Assembly (NCBI RefSeq): GCF_000789255.1
Contig: NZ_CP009552.1
Span: 124,001 to 188,000 of the forward strand
DNA: 64,000 nt
Source of the DNA: Geoglobus acetivorans
GTDB taxonomy: Archaea > Halobacteriota > Archaeoglobi > Archaeoglobales > Archaeoglobaceae
Direction of reading: 5' to 3'
Shown here: positions 17,235 through 42,852 of the stretch, piece after piece
Layout: every line of letters starts with the position of its first letter
Position numbering within the stretch: position 1 is the first letter of the stretch
Position numbers and translations under genes: made by a program
The notes under the pieces: model-generated
Told to the model about the DNA's origin: nothing
What the model saw: only the letters and a program-made list of their open reading frames with translations
Database searches by the model: none

Positions 17235-17255
17235 GTTTTCCACAAAATGGAACGC

Positions 17256-28030: not shown

Positions 28031-28047
28031 AAATGCTGGTGGAAATT

Positions 28048-28500: not shown

Positions 28501-28503
28501 GAG

Positions 28504-29138: not shown

Positions 29139-29427
29139 TCGGGACAGCCTCCTTCCAGACTGCGTCTTTAATTCCCGGCTTCAGAGCTTCAACTGTGATG
29201 AGATCAACTTCTGCCCCAAGCAGATCTTCAAGGAAGAATTTGAGGTCCATGTAATTGTCGAAAGTTTTCTTTCCCTTCTCGAATTCCACGAGAATGTCGA
29301 TGTCGCTCTTCTCGCTCTGCTCTCCTTTTGCATAGGAGCCAAAAAGCCAGAGTCTTTTAACTCCAAATCTCTTGATTTCGTTCCAGTGTTTGATTATCAT
29401 TTCCATGATTTCAGTCTTGGAGACCAT
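29125..29427 (-). CDS. mntA: MntA-type nucleotidyltransferase antitoxin
   Basis: 100 aa minimal nucleotidyltransferase. The GSx10DxD motif is present: LFGSYAKGEQSEKSDIDILVEF, and the third acidic residue is in AEVDLIT. It AMPylates and inactivates the partner HEPN toxin. It is first in the operon mntA-hepT-third gene. Confidence 0.92.
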   Translation of the reverse strand: MVSKTEIMEMIIKHWNEIKRFGVKRLWLFGSYAKGEQSEKSDIDILVEFEKGKKTFDNYMDLKFFLEDLLGAEVDLITVEALKPGIKDAVWKEAVPIEGL

Positions 29428-29468
29428 GGCTCTATCCTCAATTTTATTTTTTATGAAACTTTAAAAAG

Positions 29469-29636
29469 TTATTTGACTCTGACCTTCCCTGTAAGCAGCA
29501 GTTCCATGGCCTTTTTCTTCATCCTTTCAAGCCTTTCTTTTTTGGCTCTTTTTACCTCTATGACCTCATCCCACGTTGACAGAATTTCGGCGATTTTCTG
29601 CTGTTCGTGGGTGGGGGTAATCGGTGGAGGATTGAA
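29469..29636 (-). pseudogene. hsdS: Relic of type I restriction specificity subunit (HsdS C-terminus)
   Basis: A frame of 55 residues without a start codon, opened by a TAG at 29637-29639. It reads FNPPPITPTHEQQKIAEILS, then TWDEVIEVKRAKKERLERMK and KKAMELLLTGKVRV, the textbook end of HsdS (PP-EQ-KIA-IL-xxDe..., K-x-LLtGKvRv). The rest of the subunit and hsdM/hsdR are absent, so this is the scar of a lost type I system. Confidence 0.85.
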
Positions 29637-29692
29637 CTAAATTCTCCACATAGAAACACAACCGTTATAGCGTTTAAAATCAACATCAGACA

Positions 29693-30382
29693 ATGATGAA
29701 CGAACTGATCAGAATCAACAGAGAAACTTGCAACATTCTCTGGAATCTACCAGATATAGATTCTGAACCGACGCTGAATTATCCAAGGCTGATAATTCCG
29801 AGCAGAAGGGATAAACACAGGAGAATAAGCGAGCAGGAGGCAAGATTCGTATTCTGCAGCATTCTGAATAACTCTAATTTCTTTTATTCGATCGAAACAC
29901 CAACCGAAAATGAATATCAGTTCACCGGAACAGGGATGAGGAGCGCCTCAACTGACCTCACAATCTATGAATACAGAGATGGCTTCAGAAAGCTCGTGAA
30001 CGTTGAATTCAAGGCACACAATCCGAAATTCGGTGAGGTAGAAAAGGACATTAAAAAGCTGGTGGGTGAAGAAATTACGGGCAACTGGTTTCATCTCCTG
30101 AAGAACGTCAACAGCATGACTCTCAAAGCCCTCTTCGGCAAAATTAAAAAGGCCCTTGTAAGGAATTACAGCGATAGCATTTCCATACTGTTCTGCTTCT
30201 GCGTTCTCGATAAAAAATGGGCCTGTATGAAGCACTTTAACTGGAATGGGTCTGAATTACCACATAAAGAAAAACAGGAAAAATACAGGGCTTTTGTTGA
30301 AGAGTTTTTCAGGCTGGATTATTTTGTGAGAAGGGAGATAGTCGTAGTGGATGATAATGGCTGGGAGATCTGCAGTAACTGA
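29693..30382 (+). CDS. Predicted PD-(D/E)XK nuclease-like protein
   Basis: 229 aa, no close family recognised. ASTDLTIYEYRDGFRKLVNV followed by EFKAHN has the spacing of the PD-(D/E)XK core (Asp, then about 17 residues on, Glu-x-Lys as EFK), and an upstream Glu in EQEARFVFC could be the fourth ligand. The protein is soluble and mixed alpha/beta. It starts 57 bases from the hsdS relic on the opposite strand, so a restriction or defence role is plausible but unproven. Confidence 0.65.
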   Translation: MMNELIRINRETCNILWNLPDIDSEPTLNYPRLIIPSRRDKHRRISEQEARFVFCSILNNSNFFYSIETPTENEYQFTGTGMRSASTDLTIYEYRDGFRKLVNVEFKAHNPKFGEVEKDIKKLVGEEITGNWFHLLKNVNSMTLKALFGKIKKALVRNYSDSISILFCFCVLDKKWACMKHFNWNGSELPHKEKQEKYRAFVEEFFRLDYFVRREIVVVDDNGWEICSN

Positions 30383-30447
30383 TGGAAAAGCATCGCAACT
30401 GCAAAGCCTGAGAATCGGGAAAAACAGAATGAACAAAATGTCAAAGA

Positions 30448-30531
30448 CTATTTTAATTCACATTCCGGTTTCTTCAACCAGTCTGCAACCTTCTTTTCAG
30501 CTATTCTTCTCCTGCGGTATCTGTTTACCAT
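30448..30531 (-). pseudogene. Truncated Hjc-like nuclease relic (27 codons) with intact promoter
   Basis: MVNRYRRRRIAEKKVADWLK then KPECELK and a stop. The basic start followed by AEKKVADWLKK matches the N-terminal helix of archaeal Holliday-junction-resolvase-like nucleases, as in the gene at 35267-35590 (KGKVVENRIGKRYEKAG). The ATG is about 25 bases from a copy of the repeated 22-bp promoter, so the remnant may still be transcribed and translated. Confidence 0.45.
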
Positions 30532-30550
30532 AATAGTTGATAGTTTAATT

Positions 30551-30572
30551 AATACTTAAATTTTTTATTCAA
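30551..30572 (-). promoter_or_regulatory. Repeated promoter element, copy A
   Basis: Minus-strand TTGAAT-AAAAAA-TTTAAGTATT. It differs from the other four copies only at the last base of the first block (T for C). The TATA part is centred about 25 bases from the ATG at 30531. Confidence 0.65.
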
Positions 30573-30636
30573 TTATATACCTTCAGTAACCCAACATTTT
30601 TAGATATACTGCAAACCTAATTAATGGGTGTCCGGC

Positions 30637-30885
30637 ATGGGATTAACGGTATCGAGCGACGAAATTAAAGAATACGAGAGGCTGAAGATCATATCTCCGC
30701 TCACACCTATTAAAGAGAAAATAAAGTTCTTTGAGAAAAAATACGGCTGTACCTTTGAAGAGTTTGAGAGAAAACTGAGGGAAAAAGAGGAAAATTTCGA
30801 GGAGTGGGATGACTATATCGAGTGGAAGGCATATACTGAGACTTTGAATGCCCCCGAAAAGAAGTTGAGAGATTTTTCAGAGTAA
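30637..30885 (+). CDS. Orphan antitoxin-like protein
   Basis: 82 aa, charged and helical, with VSSDEIKEYERLKIISPLTP and FFEKKYGCTFEEFERKLRE. Proteins of this look occur in archaeal genomes as the first gene of two-gene toxin-antitoxin units. Here nothing like a toxin follows; 30886-30990 has only broken frames. The ATG at 30637 is preferred over GTG 30628 by distance from the AGATATA element (30602-30608). The antitoxin assignment is from memory of context and is moderate. Confidence 0.6.
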   Translation: MGLTVSSDEIKEYERLKIISPLTPIKEKIKFFEKKYGCTFEEFERKLREKEENFEEWDDYIEWKAYTETLNAPEKKLRDFSE

Positions 30886-30993
30886 TAGCTTGAAGCTAAA
30901 GGGACAGCGAGACTAAGGAGTTATGGAGGCAAGGTTGACAGTTTTCTCCGGATGGCAATAAGAATTTATACTACTTTGACCATATTTACTACC

Positions 30994-31224
30994 ATGTCTA
31001 CAAAATCCATAAAGTTGAGCGAGGAGACATACAGAGAACTTGTGGAACTTGCAGGGAAACTTCAGGCAGAGTTCAAAAAGCCTGTTTCAATTGAAGAAGC
31101 CATAAAATATCTGCTGAAAAGAAAGATAAGCGATCTGGCAGGTTCATGGGATGTAAGTGATGAAGAGGTTAGGGAGATTAAGGAATCTCTCAGCAAGGGG
31201 TGGAAGACTTGGAAATCTGCTTAG
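30994..31224 (+). CDS. vapB: VapB-type antitoxin
   Basis: 76 aa. MSTKSIKLSEETYRELVELA resembles the N-terminus of archaeal VapB proteins of the DUF217/RHH group; the C-terminal half is acidic and ends WKTWKSA. AATTTATAC at about 30962-30970 places a leaderless start near 30994. It overlaps the following PIN toxin by 25 bases. Confidence 0.85.
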   Translation: MSTKSIKLSEETYRELVELAGKLQAEFKKPVSIEEAIKYLLKRKISDLAGSWDVSDEEVREIKESLSKGWKTWKSA

Positions 31225-31607
31225 ATACGGATGTCCTCATTGACTTTCTGAGAGGGAAAGGAAAGATTGTGGAAGTGATTAAGAAGCTGGAGGAGGAGCA
31301 TGAACTTCTGACCACTTCTATAAACATATTCGAACTTTACTACGGTGCTTACAGGACGGGAAGGGAAAGAAATGTAAATGCTGTGGATGAGTTGGCTGAT
31401 AGACTCGAAATCCTGAAACTTACAGAGAGATCTGCAAAAATCTCAGGAAGGATACTGGCAGAGCTTGAGTCTGATGGAAGAGCTATAGACTTCAGGGACA
31501 TTCTTATTGCAGGTATAGTTATTGAGAATGAAGCTGCACTTTTTACAGGAAACAAAAAGCACTTTCAGAGGGTGAAGGGGCTGAAACTGTTTGAGATTGA
31601 GGAATAG
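31200..31607 (+). CDS. vapC: PIN-domain ribonuclease toxin VapC
   Basis: 135 aa. CLDTDVLIDFLRGK (D9), NIFELYYGAY (E44), IDFRDILIAGIVIE (D100) and LFTGNKKHFQRVKGL form the complete VapC pattern. GTG start at 31200, inside the end of vapB. Intact pair with the preceding gene. Confidence 0.93.
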   Translation: MEDLEICLDTDVLIDFLRGKGKIVEVIKKLEEEHELLTTSINIFELYYGAYRTGRERNVNAVDELADRLEILKLTERSAKISGRILAELESDGRAIDFRDILIAGIVIENEAALFTGNKKHFQRVKGLKLFEIEE

Positions 31608-31718
31608 GCAAAAACATATTTTGGAAAAAGCTTTGAAGCAAATACGGGTGTTATTAAGAGGATAGCAATTGGCCCAAAACCAGAGAGCCACGAAGAAAGG
31701 AAATGTTGAGAAACATGG

Positions 31719-32417
31719 TTATCGATTGCTGATTTTAGTTTTGGGTACAAAACTATCCAGCAATCCAATCAATTCTCCGATGTCCTCAATAACGAAGTCA
31801 GCCCCACCACTTCTCTCCTCAAAGAAATTCCTGTCCCCGTAGCTTGCATACACCGTCATCATCCCCAGCCTCTTTCCCGGTTCAATGTCCCTTCTCAGAC
31901 TGTCTCCGACAATGATTGCTTCCTCTGCCCCAACCCCAAGCTTATTCAGAGCAAGAATAATCGAGTCAGGCTCTGGCTTCCTCTTCCCTGTCATGTCTGA
32001 GGATATAACAGCATCAAAATAGTGCAGAATCCCTGCCTTCTTAAGTCTGCCAATCGCATGGCCGTTCACTGCATCCGTAACAACGGCCAGCTTGAGCCCC
32101 AGTTTCCTCAACCTTTCGAGAGTCTCTCTGACACCCGGGTATGGTTCAACATTTTCCAGCTTAACCCTCTCGTATATCTCGCAGCATTCTCTGAACTTCT
32201 CCTCGCAGTAAACTCCCCTGTCCCTCATGTAGTCGGCTATGTTCCTCACGTCCTCAAAACCGTGAACTCCCCTGAGGAAGTAGCCCAGCAGCTCATGCTC
32301 ATCCTCATTCAGACCGAGGTGCCTTATCACCGCTTTACATGCCTTCAGCTTCGCCTCAACAAAGTCCAGCAGCGTGTTGTCCAGATCGAAAATCACGGCC
32401 CTAATTCTCGATGCCAA
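31719..32417 (-). CDS. HAD-superfamily hydrolase
   Basis: 232 aa with HAD motif I FDLDNTLLD (10-18), an alpha-helical cap (20-95), motif II VVTDA, motif III GKRKPEPDSI and motif IV IVGDSLRRDIEPGKRLGM. It probably dephosphorylates a small phosphorylated metabolite. It is the last gene of a leftward series that begins at 35590 and overlaps the PIN gene before it by 17 bases. Confidence 0.92.
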   Translation of the reverse strand: MASRIRAVIFDLDNTLLDFVEAKLKACKAVIRHLGLNEDEHELLGYFLRGVHGFEDVRNIADYMRDRGVYCEEKFRECCEIYERVKLENVEPYPGVRETLERLRKLGLKLAVVTDAVNGHAIGRLKKAGILHYFDAVISSDMTGKRKPEPDSIILALNKLGVGAEEAIIVGDSLRRDIEPGKRLGMMTVYASYGDRNFFEERSGGADFVIEDIGELIGLLDSFVPKTKISNR

Positions 32418-33408
32418 GCCCCATCAACCTCCTGCAGATGCGGAAATGCCTGCTGAAGTCCTGGTAAAGCTGGTCGTCGAGGAACCTCAGCTTAAGCTCG
32501 TCATGGCTCTTCTTCCCCCTGAACTCCCCGAAAATGACGACGCTGTTCAGCCTTATAACCCCGAACACGCTTGCAAGGCTGTAGATCAGGTCTACTAAGG
32601 ATCTGCCGCTGCAGAAGTTAGCATCGACCGCATGGGGTATTGTGAAGTGGAAGTATTCTATGCTCTCTGCCTCGCAAATATCCGCCATCTGTCTGTCTGC
32701 TGTCAGCAAAACAGGCATCGCAGCCCTTTCCTTCTCAAATCTCCTGAGGGTCCTGACTATTGTGAAGTCGTTCGCCTCTCTGTCGTCTGTGGACTGCTCC
32801 ACACCTTCTATCTCGATCGCATGTTTTCTCAGCTCCCTGTACTCTTTCATGGCTATGTACGCTGCCAGTCTGGACTTCTTCATCCTTCTGTTGATGAACT
32901 CGTCCAGCAGGAAGGGCTGGTATTTTGCGAGTCTCTTCAGCTCCGAGATGGTCGGCTGGGTGTACTTGAAGTTGAGGGAAGACTCGATTTCCTCCCTCGT
33001 TGTTTCAACGAGCATGACCTCTCCATGCTTTACAAGCGATGAGGCTGTAAGGAAACGGTGATAGATGACGTTTGTGTCCGGGCAGAAATACACTCTCTTT
33101 CTCAGGCTGCGGTAGGAACTGAGCATATCCCTGAACCTTTCCATGTTTTCGTAGGTTATAACGCCACTTGCGAGCAGGCACTCCACAAAATCGCTGTAGG
33201 AAGGCACCTCCTCTGCAAGGTGGTCGAAATGGCTCCGCTGCCTTTCGAAATCAACCTCACCCTGCTTGATGCTCAGCCTGTATCCTTCGCCTTCAGGCCT
33301 CGCTTCGAAGAGCTGGAAGCGGGAGTAGAGAGGATACATGACGCTGACGTCATCTACAAGGTTCAGGAGGATCTGGAGTTCATCCACGCTCGCTATTTCC
33401 TCCTTCAA
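32401..33408 (-). CDS. Large PIN-domain protein
   Basis: 335 aa, larger than VapC toxins. The N-terminal 100 residues are archaeal-specific. A PIN core begins at VYFCPDTNVIYHRFL (about 106-120), with a long helical insertion, STDDREANDFTIVRTLRRF for the third acidic site and VLLTADRQMADICEAESIEY for the fourth. Stand-alone large PIN proteins of this kind are probably structure-specific or RNA-processing nucleases. It overlaps both neighbours (4 bases with vapC, 17 with the HAD gene). Confidence 0.85.
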   Translation of the reverse strand: MKEEIASVDELQILLNLVDDVSVMYPLYSRFQLFEARPEGEGYRLSIKQGEVDFERQRSHFDHLAEEVPSYSDFVECLLASGVITYENMERFRDMLSSYRSLRKRVYFCPDTNVIYHRFLTASSLVKHGEVMLVETTREEIESSLNFKYTQPTISELKRLAKYQPFLLDEFINRRMKKSRLAAYIAMKEYRELRKHAIEIEGVEQSTDDREANDFTIVRTLRRFEKERAAMPVLLTADRQMADICEAESIEYFHFTIPHAVDANFCSGRSLVDLIYSLASVFGVIRLNSVVIFGEFRGKKSHDELKLRFLDDQLYQDFSRHFRICRRLMGLGIEN

Positions 33409-33815
33409 ACTACCACCACGTCGAGCTTTCTGAAGTGCCTGTCGAAGGTGTATATTTCCTCTATTCCCTTCTCCGCCATCTTGAGACAGGCCAGAGCGTC
33501 ATTGACATCAACTTCCCTCTCTGATGCAACCAGAGATGCTTTCAGGTAATCATCCGGGCTGACCTCAAAAACTTCAACGTTTTTAAGGCTCATAAACTCC
33601 CTCACGAACTCAGCAGACATTTTCAGGCTGCTTCTGCTGGCTATCATGTTTGCAACCTCGCTGAGGTGCACCACAGTTGTCGCAACCTCTTCGCCTTCCT
33701 GTATCCTCTTCAGTATCTGCAGGGACTTCTTCTTCATCTCTGCTATTTTTCCATCAGGCTCCTTCCTCGGCTTCAGCATCGCGTAAATGAGAACGTTGGA
33801 ATCAACGAACCTCAT
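33405..33815 (-). CDS. vapC: PIN-domain toxin VapC
   Basis: 136 aa from the ATG at 33815: MRFVDSNVLIYAMLK (D5), HLSEVANMIASR (Glu), DVNDALACLKMAEKG (Asp) and EIYTFDRHFRKLDVV (Asp). The in-frame residues upstream of 33815 are out-of-frame antitoxin sequence and are not included. Its start lies 14 bases inside the AbrB antitoxin gene. Confidence 0.92.
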   Translation of the reverse strand: MRFVDSNVLIYAMLKPRKEPDGKIAEMKKKSLQILKRIQEGEEVATTVVHLSEVANMIASRSSLKMSAEFVREFMSLKNVEVFEVSPDDYLKASLVASEREVDVNDALACLKMAEKGIEEIYTFDRHFRKLDVVVV

Positions 33816-34020
33816 ACAGATCCTCCCGCATTTCCTCCCACTCCTTGAGCTCCTCCACCTCAATGCTGTCCGCAAACTTCATTATATTCCCCTTCCTCGG
33901 CAGAATTTCAACCCTGTCGTCGAAAACCAGAACTATGACCTCATCCCCGTGCCTCTCCCTCCACTCCTTTGGGATGACAATTCTTCCGTGCCTGTCCAGT
34001 TTTTTCACGTCAATGCCCAT
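33802..34020 (-). CDS. vapB: AbrB-type antitoxin VapB
   Basis: 72 aa. MGIDVKKLDRHGRIVIPKEW is a clear AbrB swapped-hairpin domain; the acidic tail EELKEWEEMREDLYEVR is the toxin-binding part. It overlaps vapC by 14 bases and sits 45 bases downstream of the CARF gene. Confidence 0.92.
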   Translation of the reverse strand: MGIDVKKLDRHGRIVIPKEWRERHGDEVIVLVFDDRVEILPRKGNIMKFADSIEVEELKEWEEMREDLYEVR

Positions 34021-34065
34021 ATTCTCTCTTTGATGGCATTCTAAATAAATTTTGCCACAACATCC

Positions 34066-34536
34066 TCATTTGCTTTGAGCTTCCCCTACAAAGTCCCTCA
34101 GGCTCTGATTTGCCATCGGGATCATCATGTATGGCCTGCTTTCGAGCCTCTTAACTGCAAGATAGAAGACGTGATCCATTTTGTGCTTGACAGCGGGGAT
34201 TAATGCAGCGGCAACCAGAGCCTTCCTTCCCGCCGTAATGTCTATGGCTATGTTGCAACCCTCCTCCTTCAGCCTGCGTATAAGTTCGCTAATCATTCTG
34301 CCAGCACTAACAAAATCCGCTTCGGGAACAAGATGAGTCTGAATCTCTGGAGAGATGCCAAACTCCTCGCTCAGGACTCTCATTCCTTCAGCGGCTTTTC
34401 CAAGCTCGTCTGCAAAAATGTCCTCGGCAAAAATGTGGACGATGTCGGGGAAGTATCTGCCCTCCATGAGCACCGCGTAGTATGTGTTCACCAGAGCCCA
34501 TGTGGAGCGGCCGAGCATTGTGATGTAGGCCTTCAT
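34066..34536 (-). CDS. Stand-alone CARF-domain protein
   Basis: 156 aa, single Rossmann-like domain. The first strand is KAYITMLGRSTWALVNTYYA and the ligand-loop segment is IAIDITAGRKALVAAALIPA, matching the D-(I/L)-T-x-G-x-K pattern of CARF domains of Csm6/Card1/ring-nuclease type; FYLAVKRL and MMIPM follow as in those domains. CARF domains bind cyclic oligoadenylates. There is no effector domain, so it could be a sensor subunit or a ring nuclease that degrades the messenger. It abuts the upstream phospholipase-like membrane gene with no gap. No CRISPR genes are in the window. Confidence 0.75.
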   Translation of the reverse strand: MKAYITMLGRSTWALVNTYYAVLMEGRYFPDIVHIFAEDIFADELGKAAEGMRVLSEEFGISPEIQTHLVPEADFVSAGRMISELIRRLKEEGCNIAIDITAGRKALVAAALIPAVKHKMDHVFYLAVKRLESRPYMMIPMANQSLRDFVGEAQSK

Positions 34537-35265
34537 TCATTTCACCTCGAACCATTCATAATTGGTTCTCCACTTTGAATAATTAAAGTCCAGTTTATGG
34601 ATTACATAGCTTAGGATGGCTGAAATAGCTGCAAAATTGATATTAAATGTGGCAAGTATCCATGGAAGAATCACAGCAACGAGATGTATCAACAAAGCTT
34701 GATTGTATTTTTCCTTCAGATTTTCTGGCTTATTGGGGTTTAAAACAAGCTTTATCGCAAGAGACGTAAGAAATGAACAGGCCCTCATTATTTCATCTGG
34801 AGTTCTACCCCTTTTTGTGTTGTAAACTATACTCTTAAACTCGTGGGGGTAGCAGATTATGTTTTTAGCCTCCTCAACGGCTCTGAAATCAATTGGTATG
34901 CTTTTGAGAACTTCCTCTCTTTCTTCATGAGCTTTGTCAGAACGGTATTTGAATATCCATATGCTCTCGGTTGGATCAACAGAATAGTCCTGTAAATAGT
35001 GTAAAGCTCTCCCCAAAGGTTCAGCAATTGACATTCCTGAAATAAGATTCTTTCTTGCCTGCTTGAGATAATTAAAAGCGGTTTCAATAGCCATAGCCTC
35101 ATGGTGTGGTACTCTTCGCCTATAAATTCTCTTTCTTCCGTAATATAAGTAATAATCAGGCTCTCTGTCTGGAAGAACGCTCATTTCAGCTATTTCCATT
35201 GGTTCAGGAAGCTCATAAAACCTGCAAATCTCCAAAGTGATTCTTCTGTGGTCAGCCCACTTCAT
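34537..35265 (-). CDS. Zinc-dependent phospholipase C-like protein with C-terminal membrane segment
   Basis: 242 aa. MKWADHRRITLEI at the N-terminus, RVPHHEAMAIETAF (about 50-63) and LGRALHYLQDYSVDP (about 85-99) resemble the Trp/His and HxxxD zinc ligands of the PLC/S1-P1 nuclease fold, though an HD-type hydrolase is an alternative. Residues 190-225 form one or two membrane helices (LLIHLVAVILPWILATF). It is between an Hjc-like nuclease gene (1-base gap) and the CARF gene (abutting), so all three should be made together. The function as a membrane-associated effector is inference. Confidence 0.65.
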   Translation of the reverse strand: MKWADHRRITLEICRFYELPEPMEIAEMSVLPDREPDYYLYYGRKRIYRRRVPHHEAMAIETAFNYLKQARKNLISGMSIAEPLGRALHYLQDYSVDPTESIWIFKYRSDKAHEEREEVLKSIPIDFRAVEEAKNIICYPHEFKSIVYNTKRGRTPDEIMRACSFLTSLAIKLVLNPNKPENLKEKYNQALLIHLVAVILPWILATFNINFAAISAILSYVIHKLDFNYSKWRTNYEWFEVK

Positions 35266-35266
35266 T

Positions 35267-35590
35267 TCAGAGCCTCTTTACTCTAACTCCGTGCTTTTTG
35301 GCAGCTTTCTTTGCATTAGAACTAAGCTTCGTCTTTCCAGTTAGGATTAGTGTTGGTTTTGCCTTAATTCTTCTGGCCTTTCTCGCAATTTTCGCGACTT
35401 CAGAGCTGGAGACAGTCCTCCCTTTTGCACTGTGCTTGACCTCACCAGCAATCTTTTCTCTTTTTCTTTTTGCTATCAAGTCTATCTCTCCTTCTGGGGT
35501 TCTCTTTCTGTACTGCACTTTGTAACCTGCCTTCTCGTACCTTTTCCCAATTCTGTTCTCAACAACTTTCCCTTTTCTGCATTTTGGCAT
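35267..35590 (-). CDS. Hjc-like / restriction-endonuclease-like PD-(D/E)XK nuclease
   Basis: 107 aa, very basic. The nuclease core is complete: a helix with KGKVVENRIGKRYEKAGY (Glu), then GEIDLIAKRK (Asp) and IAGEVKHSAK (E-x-K). The domain is of the Holliday junction resolvase/Mrr-like type and would cut branched or modified DNA. ATG 35590 is about 26 bases from the TATA part of promoter copy B, so the mRNA is leaderless. First gene of the nuclease - PLC-like - CARF - vapBC - PIN - HAD series. Confidence 0.85.
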   Translation of the reverse strand: MPKCRKGKVVENRIGKRYEKAGYKVQYRKRTPEGEIDLIAKRKREKIAGEVKHSAKGRTVSSSEVAKIARKARRIKAKPTLILTGKTKLSSNAKKAAKKHGVRVKRL

Positions 35591-35610
35591 CAATAATTAA
35601 TAGTAATGCT

Positions 35611-35632
35611 AATACTTAAACTTTTTGTTCAA
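35611..35632 (-). promoter_or_regulatory. Repeated promoter element, copy B
   Basis: Minus-strand TTGAAC-AAAAAG-TTTAAGTATT, centre of the TATA part about 26 bases from the ATG at 35590. It overlaps the last four codons and stop of the broken vapC gene. Drives the Hjc-like/PLC-like/CARF series. Confidence 0.7.
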
Positions 35633-36013
35633 CTTTTATCACTTCTACTCCCAGACTTTCAGCATCTTTCTTCAGCTTTTTATCGTAAGTGGCGAGCTTT
35701 CCGTATTTCTCTGCCACAGGGAGAATCACCATGTCGTTGAACCTTGCTGGGCTCTTCGTCAGCTCAAGGGCCCTCTTTGTAAAGCTGCCATTATCTCCAA
35801 CAATTCTGCTCCTCTGGCTGTCGATAATGCTCTTCACAACCTTCTCAATTTCTTCTCCGCTATACTCTTCTTCCCTGAAAAACCAGTACAGCTCATAGAT
35901 AACGATACTGGGAATGATCTACCTATCCAGCGAAGCAAGGAAGTCCCTTGCCTGCCGGTGAAATTCTGAATCCTGCAGAATAGCGTAGATGAACACGTTT
36001 GTGTCTATCACCA
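35616..36013 (-). pseudogene. vapC: VapC toxin gene interrupted by an in-frame TAG
   Basis: The frame begins at ATG 36013 with MVIDTNVFIYAILQDSEFH and RQARDFLASLDR, hits TAG, and continues in the same frame IIPSIVIYELYWFFREEEYS (PIN Glu), RFNDMVILPVAEKYG (PIN Asp) and LATYDKKLKKDAESLGVEV to TAA 35616. All PIN residues are intact apart from the single nonsense codon at about codon 32. The span of 398 bases contains no other lesion that I see except the need for a one- to two-base check of length near 35838, so translation of the C-terminal part from ATG 35837 is conceivable but would lack the first Asp. Confidence 0.8.
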
Positions 36014-36036
36014 TACTGTCACCTTAATGTAACTCC

Positions 36037-36258
36037 TCATTCCACTCTCATACCCTTCCTGATGCTCTCCTCAATTTTCTCCACTGTAAGATCTTTTCCA
36101 CCCTTTAGAACCGGAAGCTCAAGCTTCTCCTTCCTTAATACGATTTTGCTGCCCTCAATGTTGAAGACGAGGATATCCCCGACATTTATACCAAGTTGTT
36201 CTCTAATTTCCTTAGGGATAGTAATCTGATAATTCCTAGTAACCTTTGTTGCAGGCAT
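36037..36258 (-). CDS. vapB: AbrB-type antitoxin VapB
   Basis: 73 aa. MPATKVTRNYQITIPKEIRE and QLGINVGDILVF make the AbrB domain; the tail EKIEESIRKGMRVE is the toxin-binding helix. Its cognate toxin just downstream is interrupted by a stop codon, so this antitoxin may now be an orphan. A CTTAAGCAT element lies about 25 bases upstream of the ATG. Confidence 0.92.
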   Translation of the reverse strand: MPATKVTRNYQITIPKEIREQLGINVGDILVFNIEGSKIVLRKEKLELPVLKGGKDLTVEKIEESIRKGMRVE

Positions 36259-36364
36259 AGTAGAATGTTTATGATTACTATGCTTAAGCTTTACGCATTA
36301 GTTGGTTGTTCGATCTTTTTATCTTTTTACAAGTACTTTTAAGTGGAACAGTGCAAAAATTAAA

Positions 36365-36805
36365 ATGGTGTCTCAAATGCCGGAAATAGATGCGGACCTC
36401 GTTAGCAGGAGACTCGCGGAGATAAAATTGCTTGCTGAGGAGCTGAAGGAAATACTTGACATGGGATTGGAAAAGTTTCTCTCTGATTCATATGTAAGAG
36501 ATGCAGCAAAATACAGGCTCCTTGTGGCAATCGAAGCTGCGATAGCCATCTGCAATCACATTGCTGTAAGGGCTGCTAAAGAAGTTCCGGGAAGTTACTC
36601 TGACTGCTTTATTATTCTCGGAAAAAGTGGAGTGATATCCGAAGAGCTGGCGAAAAAGCTGGCAGAGATGGCAAAGTTCAGGAACATGCTTGTCCATGTT
36701 TACTGGAAGATTGACGACCGAAAGGTCTACGATATAATCGGAAAGGATTTATCTGATCTGGACAGATTCATTGATGAGGTGAGGGCGTATCTTGGACATG
36801 GATGA
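36365..36805 (+). CDS. hepT: HepT-like HEPN toxin
   Basis: 146 aa, all-alpha. The HEPN catalytic box is FRNMLVHVYWKID (R-N-x3-H-x-Y), and the N-terminal helices (RLLVAIEAAIAICNHI) match DUF86 proteins of the larger HepT type. Start ATG 36365 is about 27 bases from TTTTAAGTG. Here the toxin precedes the antitoxin, the reverse of the pair at 28788-29427. Confidence 0.9.
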   Translation: MVSQMPEIDADLVSRRLAEIKLLAEELKEILDMGLEKFLSDSYVRDAAKYRLLVAIEAAIAICNHIAVRAAKEVPGSYSDCFIILGKSGVISEELAKKLAEMAKFRNMLVHVYWKIDDRKVYDIIGKDLSDLDRFIDEVRAYLGHG

Positions 36806-37178
36806 TGTGAAAAACAGAATCAGAAATATCCTGAAAGACAGAGAGGAAGTTGTATTTGCATATCTGCATGGAAGTTTTGGCAAAGATCACTTCAGAGACA
36901 TTGACGTCGCGGTCTTCGTGGATGAGGGTAGGGTGAAGGATTTTCTCGAGTATGAGATTGGGCTCTCACTCGAAATTGAGGAATCAATAAAGTATCCTGT
37001 GGATGTCAGAGTTCTGAACTCTGCCCCTCTCAGCTTCAAGTACCGGGCGATCAAGGGGGAGCTTCTGCTCAGCAGAGATGATGAGCTGAGATTCAGGTTT
37101 ATGGAGGAAGTAATACGAGAATATCTGGACTTCAAGCCGGTCGAAGAGAGGATGATCAGAGAGATACTGAGTATGTGA
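36798..37178 (+). CDS. mntA: MntA-like nucleotidyltransferase antitoxin
   Basis: 126 aa. AYLHGSFGKDHFRDIDVAVF is the GS-x-D-x-D nucleotidyltransferase motif and YPVDVRVLNS supplies the third acidic residue. It overlaps hepT by 8 bases. Expected to AMPylate and silence the HEPN partner. Confidence 0.9.
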   Translation: MDDVKNRIRNILKDREEVVFAYLHGSFGKDHFRDIDVAVFVDEGRVKDFLEYEIGLSLEIEESIKYPVDVRVLNSAPLSFKYRAIKGELLLSRDDELRFRFMEEVIREYLDFKPVEERMIREILSM

Positions 37179-37179
37179 C

Positions 37180-37361
37180 TCAACTCAAACCAATTGCCTC
37201 TTTCAGCCTCTCTTTGAAGTTCGTGCTCAGCTCTCCGTTTTCGAATGGGTTTTCAAGCGATATAGTTCGGACACGCAAATCAATCTCCTCCCGCTAAATT
37301 CAAACACCCTTTCATGGGTAAACTCCCTAAGAGAAATTCTGATAGTGGGTTTCAAATCCAT
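37180..37361 (-). pseudogene. Small frameshifted reading frame
   Basis: From ATG 37361 the frame reads MDLKPTIRISLREFTHERVF and EFSG and then drifts; a second frame from about 37280 reads EEIDLRVRTISLENPFENGE and LSTNFKERLKEAIGLS to TGA 37180. The span of 182 bases is not a multiple of three, fitting one shift near 37285. Not recognised; about 60 aa if repaired. It is between the mntA gene and the RNase J-like gene. Confidence 0.35.
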
Positions 37362-37363
37362 AT

Positions 37364-38902
37364 TTATACCTCCACATTATCTTCGTTCTTAAACACTTTA
37401 ACATTATAAAAATTCTCCACAAACCACTCAGGGTTCGTAGTATGCACCGGAATGATCACATCCGGATCAACCTGCTCGATGATCCACCTCAAGTCGTCCT
37501 TCGACGCATGCCCTGAGGCATGGTAGCCCCTGACGAACTCAGGGGCAAGTTTCCCGTCTTTCAGCACCATCTTGAAGCCGTAAACCCGCAGATTGAACTC
37601 TCTCAGCCAGTTGTACAGCCTGAGAAAGTCAAACTCCTGCTCCTCGCTGAATGCCTCACTTGAAGAATATATGTACGTCCCGCCATCCGGCTTTATGTCG
37701 AGCAGGTGCTTCATGTCGTAGAATGAAAAGCAGAGTATGTAGTTCTCAGGATTTCTTGAAATATCCGCGGGATCAACGTACTTATCTCCCCACCTTTCCC
37801 TGACAACAAGCTCCTCCCACTTGTCCTTCTTCTGCTTCAGCTCATGGTAAATTCTTACATCCTCCATCCTGCAGATCCCATCAGCGCATTCCATCGCATG
37901 GAGCATGTAGGCGTCCTTGGCTGTTACAACAAGCTCCCTCGAGGTTCTCCTCGCAATCTCCATGAAGGTCTCAAGCCTCTCAAAATTTCTTGGTGAGAAG
38001 TCTGCAATGACAACTCCCTTCGACTCTTCAACAGCCTTCAGGCAGTTCTCAAAGACGATCTCTTCAGACTCATTAACATCCTCATCCCTGCCTGTCCTCG
38101 TTCCTTCAATGATCAGAACTGATGCATCCTTCGCCCCTCTAACAAACTCCCTCGATTTATCCGCATATTTGCCATGCATTCTGATGTCGCCGGTGTAAGC
38201 TATGGCTGAATCGCCCCACAGTATGTATGCCGTAGCCCCGTAAATTGAGTGGTCTACTTCGTAAGCATCAATGTCAAAGGAAAGGCCGTGATCATGTACA
38301 TGGCAGAGGTTTCCTGGATTGAGCTTCTTTGCATTCCTGCCTTCCTGCCCGGGTCTGTAGCACATAAACTCAGCAAGCTCGTCAGGTATTCTGTCAGTGC
38401 ATATGAGGTCCCTGCCCTTATAGGGCTTTGACCTGTCTGTAATGAGTATTCTTCTATCATCTTCCATGTGTTCTCTGACATTGAAATACGCAACCTCAGA
38501 GCCTATCCCGGAAGACGAAACATCTCTCATGGCCTTCAGCATTGCCATGCTCATTGGGGAAGCCATGATTGGAATGCTTTCATCGAGCAGAGCTATGTTA
38601 CCGCAGTGATCAACATGGGCGTGGCTCAAAAGAACCGCCTCGACACTGAGCTTGGGATAATCCGACATATTGACATCTGAAGGTATCAAATCTGAACGGT
38701 AGATGTTAAGCCTGGGTATCAGATTGAGGTAAAGGAGATCGTGAATGCCTCTCACACTTCTCTCGTTCAGAAATTCAGCAAAGTATTTCCCGTATTTCGC
38801 AAAGTTCATGCCGAAGTCCAGGAAAACTCCCTTGCCGTTTTCTTCAACGTAGATCTTGTTTCCGCCGATTGTTTCAGCACCATCGTAAACAGTTATTCTC
38901 AT
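37364..38902 (-). CDS. RNase J-like metallo-beta-lactamase-fold protein
   Basis: 512 aa. The MBL motif HAHVDHCGN (about 94-102) and later GDIRMHG, then a beta-CASP-like region with ADFSPRNFERLETFMEIARR and the C-terminal GYHASGHASKDDLRWII, followed by IIPVHTTNPEWF. These are the motifs of beta-CASP nucleases (RNase J, aCPSF), although the insertion before the His motif (residues 36-80) is unusual. It probably processes RNA or DNA ends. It overlaps the rmuC gene by 4 bases, sharing its promoter. Confidence 0.88.
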   Translation of the reverse strand: MRITVYDGAETIGGNKIYVEENGKGVFLDFGMNFAKYGKYFAEFLNERSVRGIHDLLYLNLIPRLNIYRSDLIPSDVNMSDYPKLSVEAVLLSHAHVDHCGNIALLDESIPIMASPMSMAMLKAMRDVSSSGIGSEVAYFNVREHMEDDRRILITDRSKPYKGRDLICTDRIPDELAEFMCYRPGQEGRNAKKLNPGNLCHVHDHGLSFDIDAYEVDHSIYGATAYILWGDSAIAYTGDIRMHGKYADKSREFVRGAKDASVLIIEGTRTGRDEDVNESEEIVFENCLKAVEESKGVVIADFSPRNFERLETFMEIARRTSRELVVTAKDAYMLHAMECADGICRMEDVRIYHELKQKKDKWEELVVRERWGDKYVDPADISRNPENYILCFSFYDMKHLLDIKPDGGTYIYSSSEAFSEEQEFDFLRLYNWLREFNLRVYGFKMVLKDGKLAPEFVRGYHASGHASKDDLRWIIEQVDPDVIIPVHTTNPEWFVENFYNVKVFKNEDNVEV

Positions 38903-39924
38903 TCTTCTACCTCCTCGAACGTGCAGACCGAGGAGTAAAAGCTCTTGAGGTTGCTGAAGGATGTTCTCACGTCTGATGCTTTCTTGGATGCGTTGCCAAC
39001 GTGTCTGAAAAGGATTTCCAGGTTTTCCTCAAGATTTTCGATGTAGTGCCCCATCTCGCTCAGCTTCCTCTGTATCTCCTCAGTCCTCTTTGAAATCTCC
39101 TGAGCCTGAATCCTTGCAGAGACCAGGCTGAGGTACGCGGGGAGCGTGGATGGAGAGGTCAGAATTACTCCCGATTTTGCAGCCTCCACCGCAACATCCG
39201 GCTCTTCAGAAACTAAGTGATAGAAAATCGTGTCTGAAGGAACAAACATGAGCGCAAAGTCCAGGGTGTTTCCCTTTCCAACGTACTTGCTCCGTATGCT
39301 GTCAACATGCCTTTTCACGTCTTTTACGAATTCCTTCCAGTACTTCTCCTTCTCAGCCTCACTCTCCGCCTCGCTGTACTTCCTGAAGTTCTCAAGGGGA
39401 AATTTTGAATCTATGCAGAGATATCTGCCGTCCTCGACTGCAATACACGCATCAGGTATTCCATGACCTATATTCTTCTGAAAATTCAGTCTGTTCTGGG
39501 GGAAGATGTCCTTCAGCAGGCTTTCAAGCTGAAGCTCGCCGAATTTTGCCCTCGAATGCTTTACCTGAAACATTGTTTTCAGGTCAGAGGTTATTGCCTT
39601 GAGATCCGCAGAAGCTTCACTCAGCTTTCCGAGATCCTCTTGGATTCCCAGCTCTTTGAGCGAGGTGGCGAAGGCACCCTTTATCACCTCGGAATTCTTT
39701 GTTATGGCCGATGCGAAGAGACTTTCGAGGACTCCTGCCGAGCTCTGAAATGTTTTTGCAACAGCACCCTCGACCCACTCTGGCAGACTTCTGTTCATGT
39801 CCTCGAATTTTCTGCCAATCTCCTCGATCCTGCTCTCGGCACTTCTCTGTCTCAGTATCACGTAAACCAGAACGGCAAGAACAGTGATCAGCAGCGCCAC
39901 GTCATAAAATTCTGTCACCTGCAT
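38899..39924 (-). CDS. rmuC: RmuC-family DNA recombination protein
   Basis: 341 aa. One N-terminal membrane anchor (about 8-24), a coiled-coil region (30-130) and the RmuC nuclease core: AKFGELQLESLLKDIFP, IPDACIAVEDGRYLCIDSKF and LDFALMFVPSDTIFYHLV. RmuC limits inversions and acts against aberrant DNA in bacteria. GGTGGTG precedes the ATG by 3 bases. The promoter is copy C of the repeated element. Forms an operon with the RNase J-like gene. Confidence 0.92.
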   Translation of the reverse strand: MQVTEFYDVALLITVLAVLVYVILRQRSAESRIEEIGRKFEDMNRSLPEWVEGAVAKTFQSSAGVLESLFASAITKNSEVIKGAFATSLKELGIQEDLGKLSEASADLKAITSDLKTMFQVKHSRAKFGELQLESLLKDIFPQNRLNFQKNIGHGIPDACIAVEDGRYLCIDSKFPLENFRKYSEAESEAEKEKYWKEFVKDVKRHVDSIRSKYVGKGNTLDFALMFVPSDTIFYHLVSEEPDVAVEAAKSGVILTSPSTLPAYLSLVSARIQAQEISKRTEEIQRKLSEMGHYIENLEENLEILFRHVGNASKKASDVRTSFSNLKSFYSSVCTFEEVEE

Positions 39925-39952
39925 TACACCACCTGAAGTTGATTGGTCTGAT

Positions 39953-39974
39953 ATTACTTAAATCTTTTGTTCAA
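39953..39974 (-). promoter_or_regulatory. Repeated promoter element, copy C
   Basis: Minus-strand TTGAAC-AAAAGA-TTTAAGTAAT, same spacing as the other copies. The expected transcript start is about 7 bases before the rmuC ATG, leaving room for the GGTGG ribosome site. Confidence 0.68.
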
Positions 39975-40083
39975 GTTTAAAAATGCTTGGATATAAAACG
40001 CGTTCGATGTATGATGAACGCTGAATGGATTCACAGAGATGCAAATTGGAAAATAAAACCATATCGTTTCAATGCAGAAAACC

Positions 40084-40785
40084 TTATTGCCTGTCCAGAG
40101 CTGCGGTTATCGCCTTTCCAAGCTCTGTCAGTATTATTTTCACATTTCTGCCATGCTTTTCTCTCTTAACAAACCCTGTCCTTTCAAGCTTTGAGAGGTG
40201 GTGGCTAAGCCTGCTCCTTTCACTCTGGAATTCTCTTCTTCCCTTGCCAATTTCCGGATTGAGCTTTATTACCAGCTCATCGAGGGATGATACACCGTCT
40301 CCTATGGCTTTTAAAATCTCCATCTGCTCCCTTCCGGGGAAGCTTACCGGCAGAATGGGCAGCTCCACGATCTCCTCTATCCCTTCTTCCTCGTCGTTTT
40401 CGCCGTACTTCGGAATTGATGAGAACACCCTCGAGTTCGTGATGCTTGCGGCAATGTATGCTGCAATGGCGAACGTTCTGAGAGAGCCGGAGACGTTGAA
40501 CACGACCTCATTGCCGGTCTCCCGTTCTCTCTCGGCTATCTCCACAAGCTCGAGAACGGCGTTCATGATGTTTTTCTTGTCAATCTCCACGATCTCGACG
40601 TCAAATATTGTTTTGAGCTCGTCGGCTATTTCCTTAGCAACTCGTCTGGCCTTCCTCTCACCGCTCGTGTCGGGCTTTCCAACTGCGAGAATGATTCTGG
40701 TGACGGGCAGTTCCCTGAGGGTGCGGATGGATTCGATAATCCTCTCCTTCGTGTGTCCAACGAACGTAATCTGGGTTACAGGCAT
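40084..40785 (-). CDS. CARF-domain winged-helix transcriptional regulator
   Basis: 233 aa. CARF-type Rossmann domain 1-145: QITFVGHTKERIIESIRTLR, VVFNVSGSLRTFAIAAYIAA (ligand loop) and FSSIPKYGENDEEEG. A wHTH follows at 155-233 (RSRLSHHLSKLERTGFVKRE). Paralogous architecture to 17256-17936. The ATG is about 26 bases from the TATA part of promoter copy D. It sits between two other units with the same promoter, so it is the obvious candidate regulator of the element, by inference. Confidence 0.85.
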   Translation of the reverse strand: MPVTQITFVGHTKERIIESIRTLRELPVTRIILAVGKPDTSGERKARRVAKEIADELKTIFDVEIVEIDKKNIMNAVLELVEIAERERETGNEVVFNVSGSLRTFAIAAYIAASITNSRVFSSIPKYGENDEEEGIEEIVELPILPVSFPGREQMEILKAIGDGVSSLDELVIKLNPEIGKGRREFQSERSRLSHHLSKLERTGFVKREKHGRNVKIILTELGKAITAALDRQ

Positions 40786-40804
40786 GTTGATTGATGGAAT
40801 CAGT

Positions 40805-40826
40805 AATACTTAAACTTTGCGTTCAA
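40805..40826 (-). promoter_or_regulatory. Repeated promoter element, copy D
   Basis: Minus-strand TTGAAC-GCAAAG-TTTAAGTATT upstream of the CARF-wHTH gene; the TATA centre is 25-26 bases from its ATG, so transcription is leaderless and the regulator may control itself. Confidence 0.7.
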
Positions 40827-40854
40827 GCTAAATAAAAAATGGAAGAGTTTATTC

Positions 40855-41238
40855 TCACCAGAACTTCCTGTAGGCCTTTTTGAAACAATCACTGTGGTAG
40901 TAGAGGCCCACGTAGTATGCCCAGCTTTCAAACACCGGCTCACCGCACACCGGACAGAGAGCCTTTCCCTCCGGTTCACCCATGTAGCGGACGGGTTTTA
41001 TCAGGTCTTTTTGCCTGAGCTCTTCAACCCTCTCAAGCTTCCTTCTGTCCACCTCTCCCAGAAACACACGATTTTCTCCAGCAACAGCCTCGGCTCTCAC
41101 CACCGTTCCATCACAGACGATCTCCACGTAATCAGCCTTCTCGACGTCATTTCTATTCTTGCGGTAGTACAGATAGTAGGGTAGCTCGACGTCAATAAGC
41201 TTCAGGAAAAGAACGGGAGGAATCCGAATTCTGTCCAC
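40855..41238 (-). CDS. Protein with C-terminal zinc-binding finger
   Basis: 127 aa. The N-terminal 85 residues are beta-rich and unrecognised. The C-terminus has CPVCGEPVFESWAYYVGLYY then HSDCF, a treble-clef/LIM-like finger (CxxC...HxxC). A perfect Shine-Dalgarno GGAGGTGAT (about 41242-41250) is placed 5-8 bases before GTG 41238, so I prefer it to ATG 41244, which overlaps the SD. It is co-transcribed with the Cys-rich gene upstream (20-base gap). Confidence 0.78.
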   Translation of the reverse strand: MDRIRIPPVLFLKLIDVELPYYLYYRKNRNDVEKADYVEIVCDGTVVRAEAVAGENRVFLGEVDRRKLERVEELRQKDLIKPVRYMGEPEGKALCPVCGEPVFESWAYYVGLYYHSDCFKKAYRKFW

Positions 41239-41258
41239 AAACATCACCTCCTCAAAAA

Positions 41259-42278
41259 TCAGCAAACGTGCTCCAGTATGTGGAACAATTTCTTTTCAAA
41301 CTCTCTTTCGAGCTTTTCCGCTATTTCAAATGCCTCAAAAATGTCCTCAGGAATGCTCACACGCAACCCTGTCAGCTCTTCGAGCGAAAAAGTTCTGTCC
41401 TCCGGAAGTCCGTCCCTGAACCTTTCCTCCAGCACGATTATCAGGTCGTAGTCGAGAACGGGCTGTCTGAAAACCTCGAACTCGAGACACTCCACCGATT
41501 TTGGTTTGAAGTCGTCGGAGTTTCCGTACAGCTTATCTATCACTTCCCGTGCAAACTCGTGCAGCTCTTCTGGCTCCAGATACGCTGCAGAGTCAACGAA
41601 AATTCCCAGCTCACGATCGTCCACTGCTCTCTGGAGGGCAAATCTGGCGATTGGCCCGATGAGCGAGTCATCTTCGGAGACGATCAGAATTCTTTTCGGC
41701 ACCATGGGATCGAATATATCGAAGTATGTGCTGTAAAATGCATATCTCTCGTCAATGCGGCAGTTTAACTCTCTGCCAATATCGATGAGCATTTTCTGCA
41801 TTTTTTTCAAGTTCTCTTCATCTCTCACCCTGCCATTCACGTCCAGAAACTTCCCGTTGACAATCGCCATAAGCCTCGCGAGAGCGTAACGGGCATCACT
41901 CCCGAAGTGGCCGTAAACTGAGTAAACCGGAAGGTCGTTCAGAACGACGTCGGTCAGCCCGAACCTTAGGCCTGTTATGAACAGCCTGTCTATTCTACTA
42001 ATCCCAGAGCTTGGATCGCTTAGCACGTAGATTTTGGCACCCTCAAAAACCTCGCCGGTTCTCGCCCCCTCCACGCCGGGCTCCACCACAACAGTTGTTC
42101 TTCCAGCCGGAATAACGAAAAACCCTTCTTCACTCAGGATTCTTCTGATCTCGCCAACGCAGCTCACACATGCTTCTTCTTTAAGCTCCGCAATCGTGCA
42201 CCTGTCTCCTACGGGGCACGAGTAGCCAAAGGTTCTGCATTCTCTCAGCTTCAACCTCTCGTCTTCTACACGCAACAT
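41259..42278 (-). CDS. Cys-rich N-terminal domain fused to LMW-phosphatase-like domain
   Basis: 339 aa, no named family. The N-terminus has C14, C21, C27, C37 and C40 within 30 residues, suitable for a metal or Fe-S site. A middle alpha/beta part (60-180) follows. Residues 195-339 begin KRILIVSEDDSLIGPIARFA and contain LDYDLIIVLEER, resembling the low-molecular-weight phosphatase/arsenate-reductase fold, but the CX5R catalytic loop is replaced (SEDDSLIGP), so it is probably a binding domain. GGAGGTG precedes ATG 42278. The predicted mRNA leader contains a hairpin at 42305-42340. Confidence 0.72.
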   Translation of the reverse strand: MLRVEDERLKLRECRTFGYSCPVGDRCTIAELKEEACVSCVGEIRRILSEEGFFVIPAGRTTVVVEPGVEGARTGEVFEGAKIYVLSDPSSGISRIDRLFITGLRFGLTDVVLNDLPVYSVYGHFGSDARYALARLMAIVNGKFLDVNGRVRDEENLKKMQKMLIDIGRELNCRIDERYAFYSTYFDIFDPMVPKRILIVSEDDSLIGPIARFALQRAVDDRELGIFVDSAAYLEPEELHEFAREVIDKLYGNSDDFKPKSVECLEFEVFRQPVLDYDLIIVLEERFRDGLPEDRTFSLEELTGLRVSIPEDIFEAFEIAEKLEREFEKKLFHILEHVC

Positions 42279-42304
42279 TTTCGCACCTCCGGCCCCCACT
42301 CTCA

Positions 42305-42340
42305 GCAGGCAGGTTGTCGGGGCCAGGCAAACCTGCCTGC
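42305..42340 (-). promoter_or_regulatory. 11-bp hairpin in the 5' leader of the Cys-rich gene
   Basis: GCAGGCAGGTT (42305-42315) is a perfect complement of AACCTGCCTGC (42330-42340), with a 14-base loop. The TATA part of promoter copy E predicts a transcript start near 42343, so the hairpin would be the very 5' end of the mRNA, 14 bases before the GGAGGTG site. Confidence 0.6.
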
Positions 42341-42362
42341 AGAAATAGTTGAATATGGTTAT

Positions 42363-42384
42363 GATACTTAAATTTTTTGTTCAA
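42363..42384 (-). promoter_or_regulatory. Repeated promoter element, copy E
   Basis: Minus-strand TTGAAC-AAAAAA-TTTAAGTATC. Predicted transcription start about 42343, giving a 65-base leader, unlike the leaderless copies A, B and D. Confidence 0.68.
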
Positions 42385-42454
42385 GTTTATGTGAACGAAA
42401 TCCACAGTAGAATGAGGGTTATGCATTTAAATACGAATCTCGCCAAACAATTCT

Positions 42455-42779: not shown

Positions 42780-42852
42780 TGGGTCCGCCCGGATTCGAAC
42801 CGGGGACCTTCGCCTCGTCAAGGCGACGTCATAACCACTAGACCACGGACCC
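42780..42852 (-). tRNA. tRNA-Val (anticodon GAC)
   Basis: The minus strand folds as a complete cloverleaf: acceptor GGGTCCG/CGGACCC with discriminator A, D-arm GTCTAGTGGTTATGAC, anticodon stem TCGCC/GGCGA around loop TTGACGA, and T-arm CCCCGGTTCGAATCCGGG. The loop gives anticodon GAC (valine, GUC codons). No intron; CCA is not encoded. A TATA element near 42876-42885 lies about 27 bases upstream of the 5' end. Confidence 0.95.

Follow-up and report, generated by a model that had tools for sequence, protein, structure and literature searches.

A 64,000-nucleotide stretch of the Geoglobus acetivorans genome (NZ_CP009552.1, positions 124,001 to 188,000; hereafter the window) carries five minus-strand copies of a conserved 40-bp element, one of which stands before the gene for a CARF-winged helix-turn-helix (CARF-wHTH) regulator. 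We consider it probable, at roughly 70%, that these elements are operators of that regulator set on a strong core promoter and that the protein is an autoregulated repressor released by a CARF ligand, an assessment drawn from sequence comparison. An earlier sequence-only reading had proposed an operator-bearing promoter of a small nuclease/CARF regulon as opposed to a standard promoter, and the uniqueness of the element in the genome, its co-occurrence with the regulator, the site before the regulator's own gene and the nuclease-rich neighbours all favour that proposal. The sites and the regulator are listed below, with half-sites and the TFB-recognition element (BRE) as defined in the next section.

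42346–42386, minus: site E, extended element (TTGA half 42381–42384, A-rich BRE, TATA TTTAAGTA 42365–42372, TCAA half 42349–42352); heads 41259–42299
40788–40828, minus: site D, before the CARF-wHTH gene
39936–39976, minus: site C; heads the rmuC-MBL (metallo-beta-lactamase) unit
35594–35634, minus: site B, downstream half TTAA; heads the nuclease / 34537–35265 / CARF_m1 / PIN / HAD unit
30534–30574, minus: site A, TTGAAT variant; heads a decayed Hjc/Mrr-like gene, a 27-codon stub from the ATG at 30531
40084–40785, minus: CARF-wHTH regulator, 233 aa; PADLOC CARF3 PDLC01862, Pfam HFX_2341_N and DUF6293_C

The element and its inverted repeat

The pattern TTGAAC-N6-TTTAAGTA was found with fixed spacing at all five minus-strand places where it had been claimed, without mismatch to TTGAACN6TTTAAGTA at 35613–35632, 39955–39974, 40807–40826 and 42365–42384 and with a single one (TTGAAT) in copy A at 30553–30572. 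It had also been described as absent from the rest of the window, where the remaining seven matches do all have three mismatches. The description of the six intervening bases as A-rich holds for four copies and fails for the one at 40807, which is less A-rich (GCAAAG). An ATG follows TTTAAGTA after 21 nt in copies A and D, 22 nt in copy B and 30 nt in copy C, and none lies at a comparable distance in copy E. Across the home genome (one contig of 1,860,815 bases) these five were the only matches with at most one mismatch (one match in the backward-read control), and all five are confined to 12 kb; the hundreds of copies before housekeeping genes that the sequence-only reading had named as the mark of a standard promoter are therefore not what the genome holds.

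A second conserved block, (A)TCAAYTA, follows TTTAAGTA at a constant distance of 12 nt and was absent from the earlier account. The combined pattern TTTAARTA-N11-WTCAAYTA occurs, at up to one mismatch across the whole home genome, in the same five places only (two matches in the control); because TATA and downstream block come together nowhere else, we reject ATCAACTA as a general initiator. The conserved 40-bp element reads ARTTGAAC-(A-rich BRE)-TTTAAGTA-N12-TCAAYTA. A matrix of it gave 52 sites (score of at least 13) in relatives' stretches around sites and regulator, 43 of them at 38 or above, in 17 genomes; among the nine below 38, we count only the own-gene sites of two genomes, G026 and G025, as likely and the others as doubtful (genomes are given as G numbers, the home genome being G000, and loci as L numbers). 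The matrix was trained on stretches fetched for holding sites or the regulator, and its shuffled control (one score of at least 6, maximum 8.4) is not independent; the independent tests are the whole-genome pattern counts and the loci outside the matrix.

Outside BRE and TATA the conserved blocks are A-R-TTGA-AC at positions -1 to 6 and W-TCAAYTA at 32–39. The imperfect inverted repeat TTGAAC/GTTTAA proposed earlier is rejected, since the G that it requires at position 12 is present only in copies B and D of the window and in 10 of the 52 sites across genomes. The better inverted repeat is TTGA-N28-TCAA, with the TTGA half just upstream of the BRE and the TCAA half between TATA and start; the halves lie 32 bp apart centre to centre, approximately three helical turns, and would therefore face one side. 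Among the non-core columns the top dyad, with a sum of 37 (centre 18.5, within the TATA), scores 3.12 and the runner-up 1.71 (mean 0.45, standard deviation 0.61), and the TTGA positions are paired in 98, 93, 77 and 91% of the 43 sites.

Co-occurrence of element and regulator

We sampled 60 genomes, the home genome included, of which 18 hold a close orthologue of the regulator (at least 228 bits, 46–100% identity; the next group begins at 152 bits, 39%); many relatives are draft assemblies, in which absences are soft. The extended element at up to two mismatches is present in 16/18 orthologue genomes versus 1/42 others (Fisher p = 1.7e-11), with 39 of its 40 sites inside orthologue genomes, and the exact 20-mer in 14/18 versus 1/42 (p = 2.4e-9). 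Allowing up to three mismatches raises the count to 53 matches, spread over 23 genomes; the backward-read control has nine. The two orthologue genomes without the two-mismatch element are G025, whose sites are TTGATAG variants in which the downstream half is weak, and G051. The 20-mer exception, G018, has an exact site at a contig end, adjoining genes that also neighbour a site in G019, while the extended-element exception, G016, has no orthologue and carries a two-mismatch site before a truncated CARF_m1; this site and CARF_m1 stub form a remnant behind McrBC-like genes (L123, about 7355–7460).

All 17 same-family orthologues have a site before their own gene, 20–23 nt from the start codon (23 in G026), two of them low-scoring (32.7 in G026, 23.9 in G025). 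Nine further loci lay outside the matrix, eight titled Archaeoglob- and one, L159, titled Methanomicrobia; L144 begins at the gene, so that eight hold upstream DNA, from six assemblies by accession prefix (L132 and L139, and L142 and L160, share prefixes). The own-gene site passes the matrix in seven of the eight. The remaining locus, L159, has an own-gene TTGATAAAAATATTTAAGTA, a TTGATA variant by eye, and a second, divergent site there heads NurA-HerA-Mre11-Rad50. Exact TTGAACRAAADNTTTAAGTA had no match in viral contigs, where no relative of the regulator was confirmed either.

In the methanogen group, a TTGATCC...TTCAAC pair at another spacing occurs in three of the 12 loci. L156, L157 and L158 (titled Methanocalculus and Methanocorpusculaceae) have a conserved TTGATCCATAGAAAGATATATACACGATTCAACG promoter upstream of a CARF-wHTH gene, in which TTGA and TCAA likewise flank a TATA-like stretch, but at N24 spacing (L158 reads TTTGATCC).

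The regulator

The protein at 40084–40785 is an HFX_2341/DUF6293-type CARF-wHTH regulator with CARF-like and winged-helix domains above curated cut-offs (PF19810, 51.5 bits, cut-off 30; PF22665, 40.5 bits, cut-off 27; PDLC01862, E = 1.3e-112). Its match to the Csa3 model of NCBIfam, TIGR01884, stays at 47.3 bits, below the cut-off of 60.2, and sequence profiles found no solved relative in the PDB at E ≤ 0.01. An AlphaFold model (pLDDT 88, pTM 0.74) has Csa3 chains (2wte, 6wxq, 6w11) as its four best PDB matches by Foldseek, followed by other CARF proteins, ring nucleases included; the whole-chain TM-scores to Csa3 are low (0.38–0.44 by query length). The motif SGSLR is invariant in 18/18 orthologues, which also show strong conservation of the predicted recognition helix. 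In G025 and G033 the helix changes from SHHL to SHLI, a change that coincides with degenerate sites and is confined to one clade.

A paralogous CARF-wHTH gene lies in the window at 17247–17936 on the plus strand (PADLOC CARF3 PDLC01868), its product showing 33% identity in the part that matched. Many genomes of the family contain relatives of it, and its promoter carries GAAAAATTTATT but lacks the dyad. When 12 promoters of paralogues (proteins 30–39% identical) were read by eye, seven carried GAAAARTTTATT and none had the two blocks at the element's positions.

Genes near the sites

The genes that the five window sites head, or that lie behind them on the minus strand, are as follows.

41259–42299, minus: Cys-rich protein headed by site E; without a family match, and clustering with a relative from G001 alone
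40855–41265, minus: 136-aa protein after it; no family match
38899–39924, minus: RmuC-family protein (PF02646, E = 3.3e-52)
37364–38902, minus: RNase J-like beta-CASP MBL-fold protein (PF12706 and PF07521 above cut-off, RNase J family below)
35267–35593, minus: Mrr/Hjc/YraN-like nuclease (PF04471 above cut-off)
34537–35265, minus: protein without a match in the family scans, previously read as PLC-like
34066–34536, minus: CARF_m1 protein (PDLC01971, E = 5e-65)
33405–34020, minus: toxin-antitoxin-like pair inside the site B unit, labelled VapBC-like from reading open reading frames (ORFs)
32401–33408, minus: PIN-like protein, a match to the PIN portion of CARF_m1-PIN fusions (PDLC01973, 7.6e-20; PF13638, 21.8 bits, cut-off 21.9)
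31719–32417, minus: HAD-superfamily hydrolase

The stub behind site A resembles the start of an Hjc/Mrr-like protein of G028 and G005, and relatives of both proteins at 33405–34020 (clusters c16 and c37) also lie inside the CARF_m1 unit of G019. In G005 a frame similar by eye to the Cys-rich protein starts behind a site at a contig end.

The earlier expectation of nuclease-rich neighbours was borne out in the relatives, where the genes near sites are modular: the regulator itself, RmuC, the β-CASP MBL protein, CARF-PIN, HAD, McrBC, an additional set of HerA-NurA-Mre11-Rad50, Hjc/Mrr- and GIY-YIG-like nucleases and, once, a prokaryotic Argonaute (pAgo). The label of a leftward regulon fits the window, where every site is on the minus strand, and fails in the relatives, where sites occur on either strand and also precede additional genes. 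ORFs were clustered over the fetched stretches of 20 genomes, position directly behind a site not being shown for each gene, and gave MBL in 15, PIN in 10, RmuC and HAD in nine each, CARF_m1 in eight, McrB in seven and McrC in six (G016, a genome without the orthologue, is included in both counts), Rad50 and a GIY-YIG-like protein in four each, and HerA, NurA and Mre11 in three each. These counts are lower bounds: ORF calling kept longer overlapping opposite frames and so missed the G000 and G004 orthologues of the regulator (cluster c53, whose G000 member is the paralogue), and the CARF_m1 of G001 escaped it too. The relatives' McrC (PF10117) and McrB-like AAA_5 proteins have family matches; the GIY-YIG label is weak (17.3 bits against a cut-off of 22.6) and comes partly from reading the motif.

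In G020 one strand behind a single site reads CARF-wHTH-NurA-HerA-Mre11-Rad50-MBL-TPR-GATase-McrB-McrC-CARF_m1-PIN-HAD, with two more sites on other contigs; a comparable set is split into three site-headed units in G028 and five in the window. HerA of this set is an extra copy: identity with the G020 protein is 78% in G021 and 76% in G005, against 30–39% for other matches of at least 360 residues. The pAgo of G020 (PDLC02436; L071:275–2584, minus) is predicted to be the second frame of a unit with a site at its head, after a 39-codon frame; the adjoining site of the G024 pAgo (PDLC02436; L077:11926–14232, plus) points away, and with one case only we reject pAgo as a target.

Behind site E we noticed a hairpin-like GCAGGCAGGTT...AACCTGCCTGC (window about 42300–42345, minus; L066, about 16170–16260), similar in G005 (L084), the interior of which is inverted in G001 as if by inversion at the repeat, with no site found on that gene side. 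An RNA hairpin in this leader scored no better than shuffles (z = -0.89; 44/200 at least equal). By labels from ORF reading, window positions 27043–37178 further hold VapBC-like pairs at 27043–27662 and 30952–31607 besides that at 33405–34020, and HEPN/nucleotidyltransferase-like pairs at 28788–29427 and 36302–37178; a tRNA-Val lies nearby at 42780–42852.

Proposed mechanism and alternatives

On the operator reading, a CARF-wHTH dimer would grip one half-site upstream of the BRE and one between TATA and +1, and would bar TBP, TFB and polymerase from its own gene and from the nuclease units. Binding of a (cyclic) oligonucleotide, produced during infection or damage, to the CARF domain would detach the dimer. 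An array of DNA and RNA nucleases would then be set free, and the CARF_m1/PIN pair would form a second arm, gated directly by ligand. We infer dimerisation, binding, repression and ligand. The strong-looking core promoter with half-sites on either side of BRE and TATA argues for repression; the start codon of the regulator gene lies 20–23 nt after the TATA, as in leaderless genes, and site D would be autoregulatory. Repression of cas genes has been reported for HFX_2341 (PMC11434293). MM_0565 of Methanosarcina mazei binds its own promoter, where none of the three 20-nt blocks that make up a 60-nt BRE/TATA fragment can be spared (PMC7465815), a requirement that fits a two-sided grip.

Several observations weigh against this reading. 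A 32-bp spacing of half-sites is long for one wHTH dimer, and the dyad test alone is not overwhelming, since the same score reaches 2.85 for a direct repeat at shift 4. The gene behind site A is dead, and the proteins behind site E have no nuclease match; the downstream half is degenerate in G025 and G033; and G051 (46% identity) keeps ATCAACTAATG with changed spacing and lacks an intact element. Extension to the methanogen group is rejected (0/12 loci at a score of at least 18), and one of 15 control loci (paralogue surroundings and other stretches) gave a weak matrix match (L125, 26.1). MM_0565 is reported to activate cas1-solo (PMC7465815). Release is the least certain part of the model because the Csa3 literature shows no simple release by cyclic tetra-adenylate (cA4): DNA binding by Csa3a was unaltered by cA4 in two studies (PMC8844856, PMC8699464), and a cA4 analogue raised Csa3b binding approximately ten-fold, the opposite of release (PMC8844856/PMC8699464).

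The same protein and site could instead serve activation, the dimer around BRE and TATA helping TBP and TFB to load and the CARF ligand switching activation on. Csa3a, like MM_0565, is reported as an activator, and overexpression of Csa3b raises nurA, rad50, mre11 and herA 2.4–3.0-fold (PMC7480081). Yet the downstream half lies between TATA and start, where a bound protein should block polymerase, and the BRE and TATA columns, highly conserved and A/T-rich like those of a strong core promoter, ought to work unaided, so that we judge activation unlikely, if worth keeping in view. That the element belongs to another co-inherited regulator or an alternative TFB, with the CARF-wHTH gene as one target among others, seems to us improbable: co-occurrence cannot separate the regulator from genes of the same operon, such as the MBL gene (15/20 genomes with fetched loci), but the own-gene site is present in 17/17, the helix change in G025 and G033 coincides with degenerate sites, albeit in one clade, and the annotated recurrent clusters, which are not all the clusters, hold no further transcription regulator.

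An ordinary strong promoter of the lineage, spread by promoter duplication, would have BRE and TATA parts as typical as those seen here, and a leaderless start spacing is likewise typical. Against this stand the five sites of the home genome, all in one cluster, the paralogue promoters without both blocks and the absence of the two-mismatch element from 41/42 non-orthologue genomes. We reject the standard promoter on the genome-wide counts and paralogue promoters, and regard duplication of one as extremely improbable.

Source of the signal

The Cas10 palm model is positive in eight of the 18 orthologue genomes and negative in ten, including single-contig G000 and G028 and also G033, which has one weak Csm1 match (20.1 bits). 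The home genome gave no match with the Csm1, Cmr2 or Cas10 palm models and none with SMODS (CD-NTase) or mCpol. SMODS is above cut-off in G024 only, with weaker matches in G020, G008 and G025, and the three mCpol matches all lie inside Cas10 genes. The one Cas1 of the home genome is at 1.356 Mb, the window at 0.124–0.188 Mb, and no Cas protein was among the ten window proteins scanned around the regulator, a scan that left out other cas genes and window ORFs. The signal in G. acetivorans may thus be none of the known cyclic oligonucleotides, the searches having covered only the Cas10, SMODS and mCpol families.

Relation to known systems and implications

HFX_2341 (crr) of Haloferax mediterranei, a DUF6293 protein, belongs to the same Pfam families, both above cut-off here. 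It is suggested to be a ligand-responsive repressor with homologues also in species without CRISPR-Cas, and the available text has its bound regions still to be found and gives no operator (PMC11434293); its effect is on cas genes among others, whereas here the ten scanned proteins include no Cas. Csa3a and Csa3b of Sulfolobales share the CARF and wHTH fold with the window regulator, and the nurA-rad50-mre11-herA set raised by Csa3b (PMC7480081) has homologues near sites in relatives here. The Csa3a motif CAPPa is a palindrome, TCCCN8GGGA, 12 bp upstream of the BRE (PMC8844856/PMC8699464), whereas the TTGA and TCAA halves flank BRE and TATA and the 52-site consensus TTGAAC...TCAAYTA has no CAPPa match. 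MM_0565 likewise sits on its own promoter over BRE and TATA, with no motif identified in the text available (PMC7465815). In CoCoNuT/McrBC superoperons a CARF transcription factor likewise precedes McrBC-type and other restriction genes, and an induced, echeloned defence has been proposed (PMC11090510); the factor there is an RtcR-type CARF-ATPase-HTH protein, in contrast to the archaeal wHTH protein of the window, whose proposed element recurs at several promoters. Judged by titles and abstract openings, no paper among the matches listed deals with this site or regulon, most subscription papers lying outside the search.

A signal-sensing protein probably docks at the element and would control both itself and a set of nucleases; the arrangement looks like an inducible defence switch. 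Tentatively, it may belong to a Cas10-independent, transcription-level CARF alarm of Archaeoglobi, in which an autoregulated repressor straddling BRE and TATA holds off a modular nuclease arsenal until released by an oligonucleotide signal. For MM_0565 and HFX_2341 the available reports name no operator motif, whereas here there is a specific 40-bp candidate operator with a defined gene set and a site before the CARF-wHTH gene itself, all of it testable. A CARF regulator with SGSLR is kept in single-contig G000 and G028, where no Cas10, SMODS or mCpol was found, and the nature of the signals that such regulators read outside type III CRISPR thereby becomes directly testable.

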